Source: Gammaproteobacteria bacterium (lineage in GTDB: Bacteria; Pseudomonadota; Gammaproteobacteria; Natronospirales; REEB76). Taken from it: a stretch of DNA of 36,823 bases. The DNA is taken from positions 111,287 to 148,109 of the forward strand of contig DASVOS010000009.1 of NCBI GenBank assembly GCA_036383255.1. Direction: 5' to 3'. The notes below the pieces were generated by a model. That model was not told where the DNA came from. It saw only the letters and a list, made by a program, of their open reading frames with translations, and did not search any database. Numbering within the stretch: the stretch's first letter is position 1; every line of letters starts with the position of its first letter. The translations under genes were made by a program, and so were the position numbers. Shown here in pieces: positions 5,133 through 8,816 of the stretch.

Positions 5133-5591
5133 TCAGGGTTTGCTCTCGTCCTCGGCTGCGGCCTGCTGCTTCGCCTTGCGGATCGCGGCAGCCACCTCCG
5201 GCGGCATGTACTTCTCGTCGTGCTTGGCCAGCACCTCGTCGGCGGTGAAACGGCCATCGGCGCCGAGGCTGCCGTGCACCACGATGCCCTGTCCCTCGCG
5301 GAACAGGTCCGGCAGGATGCCAGTGTAGGTGATGGGCACCGATTTCTGCATGTCAGTGAGGGCGAAGTGCACGGTCATGGTGCCAGACTCGCGCTGCACG
5401 CTGCCCATGGCCACGAGACCGCCCATGCGGAACGGCCGGCCGGCGGTGGCTGCGCCCGCGGCCACCTGGGTGGGCGTGTAGTAATAGAGGATGTTCTTGC
5501 GGAAGGCCGTGAGCCCGAACGCGACGGCGGTGCCGATGCCCAGCAGCAGCACGATCACGATGACGAGGCGGCGGCGGCGCGCGGGCGTCAT
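5133..5591 (-). CDS. ccmE: Periplasmic haem chaperone CcmE
   Basis: CcmE receives haem from the CcmABCD complex, binds it covalently through a histidine, and hands it to CcmF. The 152-residue protein has an Arg-rich N-terminus, one membrane anchor (about 8-28), an OB-fold beta-barrel, and the haem-binding histidine in the motif VLAKHDEKYMPPE near residue 127, followed by the conserved Tyr. The flexible C-terminal tail is charged, as in the family. The ATG at 5591 overlaps the ccmD stop by 4 bases; longer in-frame extensions only read back through ccmD in the wrong frame. Confidence 0.94.
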   Translation of the reverse strand: MTPARRRRLVIVIVLLLGIGTAVAFGLTAFRKNILYYYTPTQVAAGAATAGRPFRMGGLVAMGSVQRESGTMTVHFALTDMQKSVPITYTGILPDLFREGQGIVVHGSLGADGRFTADEVLAKHDEKYMPPEVAAAIRKAKQQAAAEDESKP

Positions 5592-5749
5592 GCGGCCCCC
5601 TTGCGGCGGCGGATGCCGTCCTTGACGCGCTTCAGGCGCCGGCCCGGTGCGAGCAGGTTCAACAGCACCACCGCTGCGGCGAGGGCGTAGGCCGGCCACA
5701 CGTAGGCGGCGTAGCCACCCATGGTGAGGAACTCATGGAAGGAGCTCAT
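5588..5749 (-). CDS. ccmD: Haem exporter accessory protein CcmD
   Basis: CcmD is a small single-pass membrane protein that helps release holo-CcmE from CcmABC. The product is 53 residues: a short N-terminal periplasmic part with the family pattern FLTMGGYAAYVWPAYALA, one membrane helix (about 16-34), and a basic cytoplasmic tail (RRLKRVKDGIRRRK). The start was set at 5749 because it overlaps the ccmC stop as ATGA and gives the right length; the same frame stays open far upstream only as antisense-like translation of ccmC. Confidence 0.9.
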   Translation of the reverse strand: MSSFHEFLTMGGYAAYVWPAYALAAAVVLLNLLAPGRRLKRVKDGIRRRKGAA

Positions 5750-6498
5750 GCGACCTCCGCCGCCCAGGCGGCGCCGCGCTCGCGTTCCAGCACTTCCGCC
5801 TGCACGCTGCGGGCGAGGCAGGCGGCGAACAGCAGGGTGAAGCCGAAGATCATGCAGAGCAGCGGCCACAGCATGCCGGGCGCGATGTCGGATCCCCGGC
5901 CCACGAACACCGTAGCGCCCTGGTGCAACGAGTTCCACCACACCACCGAGTAATGGATGATCGGCAGGTTCACAACACCGACCAGCGCCAGCACCGCCGC
6001 CGCGCGGTCGCCGCTGCGCGAGTCCTCGTAAGCGCGCTGCAGCGCGATGAACCCGAAGTACAGGAACAACAGGATCAATTCCGACGTGAGCCGCGCATCC
6101 CAGACCCAGTACGTGCCCCACATGGGCTTGCCCCAGAGCGCGCCGGTGACGAGCGCGAGGAAGGTGAAGGAGGCGCCGAGCGGGGCAGCGGCGGCGGCCA
6201 CCGCATGGGCGAGCTTCATGCGCCAGACCAGTCCCACCGCCGAGGCGACGGCCAGGATGGCGTAACCCATCATAGACAGATAGGCGCTCGGCACGTGGAT
6301 ATAGATGATGCGGAAGCCGTCGCCCTGCTGGTAATCCGGTGGCGAGCTCCACAGCCCACCATAGAGTCCCGCCGCGATCAGCACTGCCGCGGGCCAGGCG
6401 AACCACGGTATGAGAAAGCCTGCCACGCGGTACAGGTAGGGTGGCGAAGCGAAACGGTGGAACCAGGCCCAGCCGTATTTGTTATTCAGCGCGGCCAT
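5746..6498 (-). CDS. ccmC: Haem exporter/handling protein CcmC
   Basis: CcmC presents haem to CcmE on the periplasmic side as part of the CcmABCD complex. The 250-residue protein has six predicted membrane helices and the WWD signature WGTYWVWDARLTSE (about residues 125-138), flanked by the two conserved His residues (IHVPSAY near 68 and the IIHYSVVWWNSLHQ region near 185) that act as axial haem ligands in the family. The ATG at 6498 shares one base with the ccmB stop (TGATG). Length and order are canonical. Confidence 0.95.
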   Translation of the reverse strand: MAALNNKYGWAWFHRFASPPYLYRVAGFLIPWFAWPAAVLIAAGLYGGLWSSPPDYQQGDGFRIIYIHVPSAYLSMMGYAILAVASAVGLVWRMKLAHAVAAAAAPLGASFTFLALVTGALWGKPMWGTYWVWDARLTSELILLFLYFGFIALQRAYEDSRSGDRAAAVLALVGVVNLPIIHYSVVWWNSLHQGATVFVGRGSDIAPGMLWPLLCMIFGFTLLFAACLARSVQAEVLERERGAAWAAEVA

Positions 6499-7169
6499 CA
6501 GGACTCCAGGCTGACGCGCACCGCCGCGGCGATGGCGAAAGGTATCAGGGTGAGGCCGAGCGCCAGCAGCGCGGCCATGAGGTACAGCGCGCCTGCGGGG
6601 TCCTCACCATGTGCCGCCTGCGCCGCCGCCTGGGCGCCGAAGATCAGCACGGGTACCGCGAGCGGCAGCACCAGGATCGGCAGCAACATGCCGCTCTGGC
6701 GCAGGCCCACGGTGAGAGCGGCACCCACGGCACCCAGCAGGCTCAAGATAGAGGTGCCGAGCAGGAGACTCAAGACCAGCGTGCCCATCGCCTGCACGGG
6801 ATAGTCGAGCATGAGACCCAGCAGCGGCGCGAGGATCACCAGCGGCAGTCCCGTGGTGAGCCAATGTGTCGCGACCCGCGCCAGCGCCGTGAGCTCGAGG
6901 GGCAGCGGCGCGAGCGCGAGCTGTTCGAGGCTGCCGTCCTCGAAGTCCCCTTTGAGCAGGCTCTCCTGTCCGATCAGACCCGCCAAGAGCGCCGCCGTCC
7001 ATAGCACCCCAGGGGCGATGCTGCGCAGGAGCTCCGGCTGGGGCGAGAGCCCAAGCGGGAACAGTATCGTGACCAGGATGAAGAACATGGCCGGCGTCAG
7101 CACCTCGCCGCGCCGCCGGTAGGCGAGCTTGAGGTCCCGGACCAGGAGCGCGCTGACTGCGCGGCTCAT
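6498..7169 (-). CDS. ccmB: Haem ABC transporter permease CcmB
   Basis: CcmB is the membrane subunit paired with the ATPase CcmA; together they drive release of haem-loaded CcmE. The 223-residue protein has about six membrane helices and the family-typical N-terminus with DLKLAYRRRGEVLTPAMFF and the segment EDGSLEQLALAPLPLE. Its ATG at 7169 overlaps the ccmA stop by 4 bases, consistent with coupled synthesis of the two subunits. Confidence 0.93.
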   Translation of the reverse strand: MSRAVSALLVRDLKLAYRRRGEVLTPAMFFILVTILFPLGLSPQPELLRSIAPGVLWTAALLAGLIGQESLLKGDFEDGSLEQLALAPLPLELTALARVATHWLTTGLPLVILAPLLGLMLDYPVQAMGTLVLSLLLGTSILSLLGAVGAALTVGLRQSGMLLPILVLPLAVPVLIFGAQAAAQAAHGEDPAGALYLMAALLALGLTLIPFAIAAAVRVSLES

Positions 7170-7795
7170 GCGGCGGCCCTAAGTTCGAGGCGTTGCAGCG
7201 GCACGCCTTCCGGCGCGAGGGGCTGGTGGGTGGCGATGATGGCCATGCCACCCTGCCGGGCATGCCCGGCCAGCAGGCCGGTCACCAGGGCGGCGCCGTC
7301 CACATCCAGGCCGGTCAGGGGCTCGTCCAGGATCCAGATCCGGGTGCGTGCTCCCAGCAAACGGGCTAAGGCTGCGCGACGGCGCTGGCCCATGGACAGC
7401 TGAATCACCGGACGCCCCTGAGCCTCTTCCGGAAGGCCAAGACGGCTCAGGGCTTCCTGTGCTCCAATTTCTGAAGGATTACTTTTAATCGATTGATAAA
7501 AAACATAATTTTCTATCGAAGAAAGGTGGGATTTGAGCCCATTATGATGGCCAAGATAGGCCAAGCTACTCCGGTATTCCTCACTTCGCTGGATCGGTGT
7601 GCCGTTCCAGATCACCGTCCCCTCGTCAAGGCGTCCTACCCCCGCCACCGCCCGCATGAGGCTGGTCTTGCCGGAGCCATTTGGGCCGGCGAACTGCATG
7701 AGGGAACCGTCCGCGAGGCTGAAGGAGATGCCACGGCACAGGCAGCGCTCGCCGCGCCAGAGGCCGAGGTCTTGGGCTGCGAGCTCTTGGTTCAT
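7166..7795 (-). CDS. ccmA: Haem ABC transporter ATP-binding subunit CcmA
   Basis: CcmA is the cytoplasmic ATPase of the CcmAB complex. The 209-residue protein has Walker A GPNGSGKT (about 37-44), the signature QLSMGQRRR, where Met replaces the usual Ala or Gly after LS, Walker B IWILDEP, and the switch His in IATHQ. It is the first gene of the operon. The ATG at 7795 lies only 7 bases after the end of the tRNA-Leu gene and has no Shine-Dalgarno sequence (the spacer reads CACCTCC). A stretch around 7461-7520, encoding residues about 92-111, is strikingly AT-rich (16 G or C of 60 bases by hand count) in an otherwise GC-rich gene. The protein alignment through it looks normal (H..GLK...S.IENYVFY). 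No alternative start looks better. Confidence 0.93.
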   Translation of the reverse strand: MNQELAAQDLGLWRGERCLCRGISFSLADGSLMQFAGPNGSGKTSLMRAVAGVGRLDEGTVIWNGTPIQRSEEYRSSLAYLGHHNGLKSHLSSIENYVFYQSIKSNPSEIGAQEALSRLGLPEEAQGRPVIQLSMGQRRRAALARLLGARTRIWILDEPLTGLDVDGAALVTGLLAGHARQGGMAIIATHQPLAPEGVPLQRLELRAAA

Positions 7796-7802
7796 GGAGG
7801 TG

Positions 7803-7886
7803 TGCCCGGGGCCGGACTCGAACCGGCATGACCTTTCAGTCGAGGGATTTTAAGTCCCTTGCGTCTACCAATTCCGCCACCCAGGC
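7803..7886 (-). tRNA. leuZ: tRNA-Leu (anticodon UAA)
   Basis: The minus strand folds as a class II tRNA: acceptor GCCTGGG paired with CCCGGGC plus discriminator A, D arm with GGTAGAC, anticodon stem AGGGA/TCCCT around loop CTTAAAA (anticodon TAA), a long variable arm, and a T arm GCCGG/CCGGC with loop TTCGAGT. The 3' CCA is not encoded: the bases after the discriminator are CAC. It is the third of three tRNA genes in the order Gly-Cys-Leu, as glyW-cysT-leuZ in E. coli, and ends 7 bases before the ccmA start codon. Confidence 0.95.
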
Positions 7887-7918: not shown

Positions 7919-7992
7919 TGGAGGCTAGGGTCGGAATTGAACCGGCGTACACGGCTTTGCAGGCCGCTGCATGACCACTCTGCCACCTAGCC
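7919..7992 (-). tRNA. cysT: tRNA-Cys (anticodon GCA)
   Basis: Cloverleaf on the minus strand: acceptor GGCTAGG/CCTAGCC, discriminator T (U73, the cysteine identity base), anticodon loop CTGCAAA giving GCA, T loop TTCAATT. The 3' CCA is encoded (7921-7919). It lies between tRNA-Gly and tRNA-Leu, matching E. coli cysT. Confidence 0.96.
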
Positions 7993-8088
7993 GTCTGGAA
8001 CCTGAAAACCCCGGAAATCTACCACATAGAAGGGGTAATTTCAGGGTCTTGCGCTGAACATGAAGCCCTCGCCGGGGCTCCAACAAGC

Positions 8089-8113
8089 AAAAACCCCGGC
8101 GTGGCGGCCGAGG
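8089..8113 (-). terminator. Intrinsic terminator-like hairpin after tRNA-Gly
   Basis: On the minus strand CCTCGGC (8113-8107) pairs with GCCGGGG (8100-8094) around a 6-base loop, with one G-U pair, followed by TTTTT (8093-8089). It sits 13 bases after the tRNA-Gly gene and before tRNA-Cys, so it would separate the first tRNA from the other two or attenuate readthrough. No clear promoter was found between it and tRNA-Cys. Confidence 0.65.
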
Positions 8114-8126
8114 TTCTTGGTGGATC

Positions 8127-8202
8127 TGGAGCGGGAAACGAGGCTCGAACTCGCGACCTCAACCTTGGCAAGGTTGCGCTCTACCAACTGAGCTATTCCC
8201 GC
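8127..8202 (-). tRNA. glyW: tRNA-Gly (anticodon GCC)
   Basis: The minus strand is a standard 76-base tRNA with acceptor GCGGGAA/TTCCCGC, discriminator T, encoded CCA (8129-8127), D arm GCTCAGTTGGTAGAGC, anticodon loop TTGCCAA giving GCC, and T loop TTCGAGC. It is nearly identical to E. coli glyW as I remember it, and follows pgsA as glyW does there. Confidence 0.97.
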
Positions 8203-8214
8203 ATAAGGGCGACT

Positions 8215-8242
8215 ATTCTAGGGCCCCCGGCGGGGGTGTCAA
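8215..8242 (-). promoter_or_regulatory. Sigma-70 promoter of the tRNA cluster
   Basis: A consensus -35 TTGACA (8242-8237) and a -10 TAGAAT (8220-8215, five of six matches) are spaced by 16 bp on the minus strand. Transcription would begin around 8208, a few bases before tRNA-Gly. The bases between the -10 and the tRNA are GC-rich (GTCGCCC), as in stringently controlled stable-RNA promoters. It lies in the 56-base gap after pgsA. Confidence 0.82.
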
Positions 8243-8258: not shown

Positions 8259-8816
8259 TCAGGCCCGTTTCAGCTCCGGCCAGGCTGCCAGCAGGTACAT
8301 GCACATGGACCAGAGGGTGAGGCCCGCCGCCAGCACCAGCATGGCCACGCCAGCGCCGTACACGTCGAACTGCCCCAACGGGTTGCGGAACAGCATGAAG
8401 CCGATGGCCAGCATCTGCATGGTGGTCTTGACCTTGCCGACGAAGGACACCGCCACGTGCTTGGCCCGCCCCATCTCCGCCATCCACTCCCGGAGCGCCG
8501 AGATGGTGATCTCGCGGCCGACGATGATGATGACCGCCAGCGTCATCCACGTGGTGGTCTCGCGGGAGAGCAGCAACAGCAGCGAGGTGGCCACGATCAG
8601 CTTGTCCGCCACCGGATCCAGGAAGCGGCCGAAAGCGGAGCTCTCGTTGAAGCGCCGCGCGATGTAGCCGTCGAACCAGTCCGTCACGCCTGCCAGCGCG
8701 AAGATCGCGCAGCTCGCGAGGGGCGACCAGGTCCGCTCCATCATGAACACCGCCACCAGCACCGGGATGAGCGCGATGCGCAGCAACGTCAGCAGGTTCG
8801 CCCAGGTGAGTATCAC
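8259..8816 (-). CDS. pgsA: CDP-diacylglycerol--glycerol-3-phosphate 3-phosphatidyltransferase
   Basis: PgsA makes phosphatidylglycerol phosphate from CDP-diacylglycerol and glycerol-3-phosphate at the inner membrane, the committed step to phosphatidylglycerol and cardiolipin. The 185-residue protein has several membrane helices and the complete CDP-alcohol phosphatidyltransferase signature, D-x2-DG-x2-AR-x8-G-x3-D-x3-D, seen as DWFDGYIARR followed by GRFLDPVADK (about residues 46-71). Length is typical. It starts 9 bases after the uvrC stop and precedes tRNA-Gly, the order seen in E. coli. Confidence 0.95.
   Translation of the reverse strand: MILTWANLLTLLRIALIPVLVAVFMMERTWSPLASCAIFALAGVTDWFDGYIARRFNESSAFGRFLDPVADKLIVATSLLLLLSRETTTWMTLAVIIIVGREITISALREWMAEMGRAKHVAVSFVGKVKTTMQMLAIGFMLFRNPLGQFDVYGAGVAMLVLAAGLTLWSMCMYLLAAWPELKRA

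Follow-up and report, generated by a model that had tools for sequence, protein, structure and literature searches.

Organization of the tRNA-ccm region

The 36,823-nucleotide stretch of DNA analyzed here (the window) is part of a 2.59-Mb genome in 18 contigs. The genes that concern us lie on its minus strand, in the order luxR-type response regulator, uracil-DNA glycosylase, uvrC, pgsA, tRNA-Gly(GCC), tRNA-Cys(GCA), tRNA-Leu(UAA), ccmA, B, C, D and E; all coordinates below are window positions, and all of the features are on this strand. The upstream neighbour of the tRNA genes is pgsA (8259–8816; TIGR00560), and tRNA-Gly (8127–8202) and tRNA-Cys (7919–7992) both encode their CCA. tRNA-Leu (7803–7886; RF00005, 57.7 bits), whose score is within the range of other tRNAs with a long variable arm, does not. 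After a junction of seven bases (CACCTCC, 7796–7802) the haem exporter ATPase gene ccmA (7166–7795; Pfam ABC_tran) begins, followed by ccmB (6498–7169; Pfam CcmB, TIGR01190), ccmC (5746–6498; Pfam Cytochrom_C_asm, TIGR01191), ccmD (5588–5749, with its ATG at 5749 and the Pfam CcmD match across 5588–5746) and ccmE (5133–5591, starting MTPARRRR at 5591; Pfam CcmE and NF009729 both match on 5699–5133).

The tRNA-Leu/ccmA junction and the ccmA start codon

The acceptor stem of tRNA-Leu is GCCTGGG/CCCGGGC, and its 3' side reads on as CCCGGGC-A, CACCTCC, ATG. We set the 3' end of the tRNA at the discriminator A, position 7803 (the ARAGORN end at 7802 includes one trailer base), which places the spacer at 7802–7796 and the ATG at 7795–7793, seven bases past the tRNA, just as the first-pass annotation of this DNA had it. 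This is the tightest tRNA-to-ORF junction among the 30 of the 37 tRNAs found in the genome that could be assessed (seven with fewer than 300 bases downstream were left out, and for one of the 30 the scan covered 32 positions only); the next gaps are 16 and 18 nt. At tRNA-Glu(CTC) (contig C13, about 115068; L025/L072) the ATG of a 157-amino-acid probable membrane protein lies 16 nt past the CCA, with no Shine-Dalgarno (SD) sequence visible by eye, and at tRNA-Thr(TGT) (contig C16, about 20025; L001) a 493-amino-acid ORF begins 18 nt past the CCA.

The ccmA start was set from relatives and from the reading frame. The protein scores above cut-off with the CcmA profiles (PRK13538, 209.9 bits against 195; TIGR01189, 195.5 bits against 131.6), its residue 3 aligns with profile position 4, and likeness to other CcmA proteins starts at about residues 2–5. 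No ATG, GTG or TTG lies in frame between the upstream in-frame stop and the ATG at 7795, and none lies within the 25 codons after it, so use of another start codon, a possibility that had been raised against the seven-base spacing, is unlikely, and 7795–7793 is very probably the ccmA start as judged from these alignments. The earlier statement that ccmA has no SD is likewise borne out: the spacer contains no SD 4-mer, and the best duplex with the anti-SD within positions −20 to −4 is −3.0 kcal/mol and uses bases of the tRNA acceptor side. The spacer itself, CACCTCC, is presumably identical to the anti-SD stretch of 16S rRNA and so cannot act as an SD. A hidden SD or an alternative start was thus sought and rejected.

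The missing SD is not in itself the remarkable feature of this locus, and we rejected it as such. The filter for unambiguous ATG starts was passed by 28 of 127 genes, of which 11 have an SD 4-mer and 17 have none; 12 of the 28 (ccmA included) pair with the anti-SD no better than ccmA does. Such starts are common enough in this genome that nothing special should be required for ccmA to be translated. In predicted folds the bases from the discriminator to about +8 are mostly unpaired, both in the precursor and in the processed mRNA (0.63 or more across the junction and AUG), and a ccmA hairpin is predicted from about +9, so the junction lies between the acceptor stem and this hairpin. In the minimum-energy fold predicted for the precursor the acceptor stem is retained, but the full cloverleaf does not form.

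Two other properties of the ccmA coding sequence were noted. An A+T-rich patch occupies 7450–7599 (about codons 82–108, past the Walker A region), with a lowest GC of 0.36 versus about 0.67 around it. Among the 11 genes counted ccmA is the only one with a TTA codon; TTA makes up 43 of the 3985 leucine codons in 86 ORFs, so the chance of at least one in ccmA is 0.27 and a UUA-codon link between ccmA and tRNA-Leu(UAA) was rejected.

Transcription signals

A promoter TTGACA-N16-TAGAAT (8215–8242; 11 of 12 matches) precedes tRNA-Gly, and inspection by eye shows its TTGACA at the corresponding position in all 14 sequences compared. Directly 3' of tRNA-Gly there is an intrinsic terminator (8089–8113; stem CCTCGGC/GCCGGGG, followed by T5) that is found in the tRNA-Gly/tRNA-Cys spacers of all 14 genomes including this one, when 0.05 would be expected in shuffled sequences. 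The initial terminator scan of the window reported none; the fold shows a 13-pair stem that takes in the T run. Farther on, 22 nt upstream of tRNA-Cys, lies the conserved extended −10-like motif TGTGGTAGATTT (8015–8026), which we propose as the promoter for tRNA-Cys, tRNA-Leu and ccm. The pattern T(G/A)TGNTA(A/G)A(T/G)T(T/C) occurs upstream of tRNA-Cys in 13 of the 14 spacers against 0.01 expected in dinucleotide shuffles, a figure that overstates the significance because the pattern was written after the alignment had been viewed. It stands 13–29 nt before tRNA-Cys in 12 genomes and 80 nt before it in one; the exception (L045, genome G012) has a 46-nt spacer and a tRNA-Leu that runs in the opposite direction. 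No −35 element was established for the motif ahead of tRNA-Cys.

Between tRNA-Leu and ccmA the seven-base gap has no room for a terminator, and tRNA-Leu and ccmA are likely to be co-transcribed. A transcription start within tRNA-Leu, which would have given ccmA a longer leader, finds little in the promoter scan, where no pair inside the tRNA scored above 7 of 12. The transcription unit most likely comprises tRNA-Cys, tRNA-Leu and ccmABCDE; its start is placed at tRNA-Cys because of the conserved terminator after tRNA-Gly, which is probably a unit of its own. The earlier proposal that ccm is transcribed together with the tRNAs therefore stands for tRNA-Leu, where the gap is short and an internal promoter was not found, but has to be trimmed at the other end, since the terminated tRNA-Gly does not appear to belong.

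Absence of an encoded CCA

CCA is encoded by 36 of the 37 tRNAs found in this genome, and tRNA-Leu(UAA) is the sole exception (the 37 are RF00005 matches and form an incomplete set, with no Ala, Ile or Trp tRNA among them). Lacking it, this tRNA must depend on the CCA-adding enzyme. In a genome of the sister genus (G002) all 33 distinct tRNAs read, of 42 Rfam matches, encode CCA, and so do 15 of the 16 tRNA-Leu(UAA) homologues in other genomes of the order. The exception is again G012 (L045/L157, L130), where two of the 31 distinct tRNAs read (36 Rfam matches), Leu(UAA) and Lys(UUU), are without CCA and the tRNA-Leu(UAA) points away from ccmA. The tRNA-Cys of the sister-genus genome G003 (L086:7-78) also has no encoded CCA. 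Since none of these three is directly followed by ccmA, CCA loss is, to judge from the genomes at hand, sporadic in the order and not a mark of the ccmA junction, and we rejected the idea that it is a signature of that junction. For an origin of the junction by deletion from an ACACCTCC stretch within a sister ccmA (L032), frame and length fit poorly.

Enzymes for tRNA 3' processing

The genome encodes a CCA-adding enzyme (NF008137, 669.8 bits against a cut-off of 451), two RNase E/G proteins, RNase T and RNase PH, all above cut-off. Canonical RNase Z, the nuclease one would expect to act on tRNAs without CCA, was not found in it: the best TIGR02651 score is 47.7 bits against a cut-off of 293, and TIGR02649 has no match here or in all but two of the 19 genomes of the order (17 are empty, and the two have one weak match each), while 13 of 14 control genomes were matched. 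The strict TIGR02651 cut-off is exceeded in none of 75 genomes of the class, with only G019 (262.7 bits) close, so an RNase Z absence specific to this lineage was rejected. With RNase Z not found, none of the known enzymes of this genome would be predicted to cut precisely 3' of the discriminator. The best RNase Z-like match in the genome (L069, C13:153132-153575) belongs to a 254-amino-acid protein of the metallo-beta-lactamase fold; searched whole, this protein gives 66 bits across two stretches and is weakly RNase Z-like, and matches as weak and as long recur across the class sample.

RNase E is described as favouring A/U-rich sites (PMC3848588), and the C-rich junction is unlike these. The same account portrays P. 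acnes as having no obvious tRNase Z, CCA-less tRNA genes and a CCA-adding enzyme, with cleavage right at or close to tRNA 3' ends, and also within CCA between its two Cs, that is ascribed to an unknown endonuclease (PMC3848588).

Conservation of the arrangement

CcmA is found in 18 of the 19 genomes of the order, and in 13 of these tRNA-Leu(UAA) immediately precedes ccmA in the same orientation: this genome, six of the sister genus and six of other families. The likely ATG lies 8–12 nt past the CCA in the six sister-genus genomes where the two genes adjoin (L036 also has a second potential ccmA start, 35 nt away) and 24–69 nt past it in the other families. No SD 4-mer precedes ccmA in any of the ten sister-genus genomes that have the gene; outside the family one is present in two of six (L042, L049). 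Among 12 CcmA loci examined in the class outside the order, there is none in which a co-oriented tRNA-Leu immediately precedes the gene; in one of them (L044) a tRNA-Leu lies about 1 kb from ccmA on the opposite strand. An independent tRNA-ccmA adjacency was seen in another family of the class, where tRNA-Val(CAC) precedes ccmA in the same orientation (L056, G050).

In four of the ten sister-genus genomes (G011, G004, G003 and G010) tRNA-Leu does not adjoin ccmA. The distance is about 1.4 kb in G011, 0.2 kb in G004 and 19.6 kb in G003; the 5.0 kb of contig upstream of ccmA in G010 contain no tRNA. Sequence resembling the tRNA 3' end remains on the ccmA side in G011 (26 nt at 92%) and G004 (15 of 16); for G003 and G010 blastn gave no match, and a near match of 10 bases could be made out by eye. 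The tRNA-Leu(UAA) 3' end beside ccmA is a recurrent place of insertion or duplication in these four genomes (L086, L089, L088, L067), and the 19.6-kb stretch of G003 (L086, G003:C26:300700-320600) has, by eye, a copper nitrite reductase-like gene, c-type cytochromes and a CRP/FNR-like regulator. Since tRNA-Leu and ccmA are apart in 4/10 of the sister-genus genomes, their coupling is dispensable. The suggestion made for this locus at first, that cytochrome c maturation is coupled to tRNA synthesis, is accordingly unsupported as a need, and a regulatory coupling of ccm to the tRNA is unproven.

A model for expression of ccmA, and its alternatives

From the geometry of the junction, the CCA loss, the conserved terminator and −10-like motif and the enzyme gene content, we infer co-transcription, a cut, a leader length and a mode of initiation as follows. 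A promoter just upstream of tRNA-Cys would drive tRNA-Cys, tRNA-Leu(UAA) and ccmABCDE, with tRNA-Gly separate and terminated, and every transcript that yields tRNA-Leu(UAA) would run on into ccmA. The usual 30S footprint covers the position of a folded acceptor stem at −8. Because the folded tRNA reaches to within 8 bases of the start codon, and so into this footprint, ccmA would most likely be translated once the tRNA is cut away. After the cut the ccmA mRNA would have at most about 7 nt of leader and no SD, initiation would take an SD-independent (near-leaderless) route on the exposed AUG, and the CCA-adding enzyme would finish tRNA-Leu, as it would for a few other tRNAs in the order. We give this model, one tRNA-Cys/tRNA-Leu/ccmABCDE unit from which the tRNA is cut away before SD-independent initiation at ccmA, a probability of roughly 0.55. 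The seven-base junction, the missing ribosome-binding signal and the unencoded CCA together suggest that efficient reading of the ccm messenger probably requires its prior release from the tRNA by cleavage. It is plausible that weak initiation is of benefit in limiting CcmA output from a transcript that is synthesized as fast as a tRNA.

The almost leaderless ccm mRNA that the first-pass annotation expected from 3' processing of tRNA-Leu is plausible and would arise from a cut at the tRNA 3' end, but it is no automatic product of processing, since CCA is not encoded and RNase Z, which would make the cleanest cut, was not found. We regard as improbable a stronger version, a tRNA punctuation in which an RNase-Z-independent cut at the end of the CCA-less tRNA-Leu(UAA) starts maturation, which the CCA-adding enzyme completes, and makes a near-leaderless ccm mRNA that cannot be translated until the cut has been made, with cytochrome c assembly following tRNA processing.

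The alternative that fares best, unlikely as a whole though deserving of weight, is a conventional read-through operon that lacks a processing gate, in which ccmA is translated independently of an SD from the unprocessed or partly degraded transcript and tRNA excision merely lowers the yield. The large share of clear ATG starts without an SD 4-mer (17/28), an AUG that is predicted to be mostly unpaired already in the precursor, the existence of other short junctions between a tRNA and an ORF (16 and 18 nt), and the four sister-genus genomes in which ccm is apart from tRNA-Leu are all consistent with it. It has to accommodate a folded acceptor stem at −8 inside the usual 30S footprint, and tRNA excision is normally fast.

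It is rather improbable that processing is either-or, an endonuclease cutting in or after the ccmA start and exonucleases trimming back, with each transcript giving tRNA-Leu or CcmA. RNase E/G, T and PH are present while RNase Z was not found, the first unpaired stretch past the tRNA is predicted to be the ccmA start itself, and the trailer of E. coli leuZ is described as a processed RNA excised by RNase E (PMC6191717). An RNase E cut inside ccmA with trimming back would remove the start in that molecule, which counts against a model with an exact cut; cuts of the P. acnes type, at tRNA 3' ends or between the Cs of CCA, would spare the AUG (PMC3848588).

It is very unlikely that ccmA is served by a promoter of its own inside tRNA-Cys or tRNA-Leu and so has a leader of 40–110 nt: TAAAAT in the anticodon arm (its end 51 nt from the ATG) and AATAAT downstream of tRNA-Cys (117 nt from it) each match 5/6 of a −10, but the partner −35 sequences match just 2–3 of 6, TAAAAT is simply the anticodon region of tRNA-Leu, and AATAAT is absent from the other Cys-Leu spacers displayed (CATAAT in L032 and L038). 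That the missing CCA is an assembly or sequencing error is hardly credible, for although there is a single 18-contig assembly and no other member of the genus among the genomes searched, the ccmA frame is intact, the entire junction differs from that of relatives and is not a homopolymer, and three tRNAs without CCA occur in two other genomes of the order.

The locus is notable because a 7-nt junction and a CCA-less tRNA occur together in a genome with no recognizable RNase Z. In the favoured model a single cleavage would set both the 3' end of a CCA-less tRNA and the 5' end of an mRNA, in a compact natural setting. The locus bears on two questions that one construct could address: how CCA-less tRNAs are matured, and by which enzyme, where RNase Z is lacking, and whether tRNA excision can give rise to a translatable near-leaderless mRNA in bacteria.

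Comparison with known systems

The glyW-cysT-leuZ unit of E. coli, a neighbour of pgsA, is made up of these three tRNAs as well and has them in an identical order (GCC-GCA-UAA). That unit is listed among the essential ones in E. coli (PMC11480407). It is one transcript, whereas here a terminator follows tRNA-Gly and a −10-like motif precedes tRNA-Cys, suggesting a division. The trailer of leuZ ends in a terminator and acts as an sRNA sponge; here the ccmA coding sequence starts 7 nt past the tRNA instead, and unlike in the E. coli unit tRNA-Leu has no encoded CCA.

Transcripts that carry both tRNA and mRNA occur in bacteria, for example from the E. coli tufB operon, and the proposed unit would likewise join a stable RNA to protein genes. 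To our knowledge the known bacterial co-transcripts of this type have longer leaders with SD sites, and ccmA differs from these in having 7 nt and no SD. In animal mitochondria a tRNA abuts the ORF, CCA is not encoded and the mRNA is nearly leaderless. The mitochondrial tRNAs are excised by mtRNase P and Z, as described in PMC8437803. The junction studied here resembles this tRNA punctuation in that tRNA-Leu all but touches the ORF, has no encoded CCA and would give a near-leaderless mRNA; it is unlike it in being bacterial, in being a single such junction and in that RNase Z was not found. The ccm case thus looks like a variant of tRNA-mRNA co-transcription that resembles mitochondrial punctuation in layout and fails its RNase Z feature. 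In the literature searched, with most subscription journals outside its scope, there was no report of a ccmA/tRNA-Leu arrangement.

Leaderless mRNAs have been delimited as those with a leader under 10 nt, with five such mRNAs given for E. coli and 264 for S. coelicolor (PMC4681348). ccmA, with an AUG start and no SD, would come under this heading if the transcript is cut at the tRNA end, with the difference that its 5' end would come from processing and not from a transcription start. P. acnes, as portrayed in PMC3848588, shares with this genome a CCA-less tRNA and a CCA-adding enzyme in the company of no recognizable tRNase Z; it differs in that about half of its tRNA genes are without CCA, against one of the 37 tRNAs found here.
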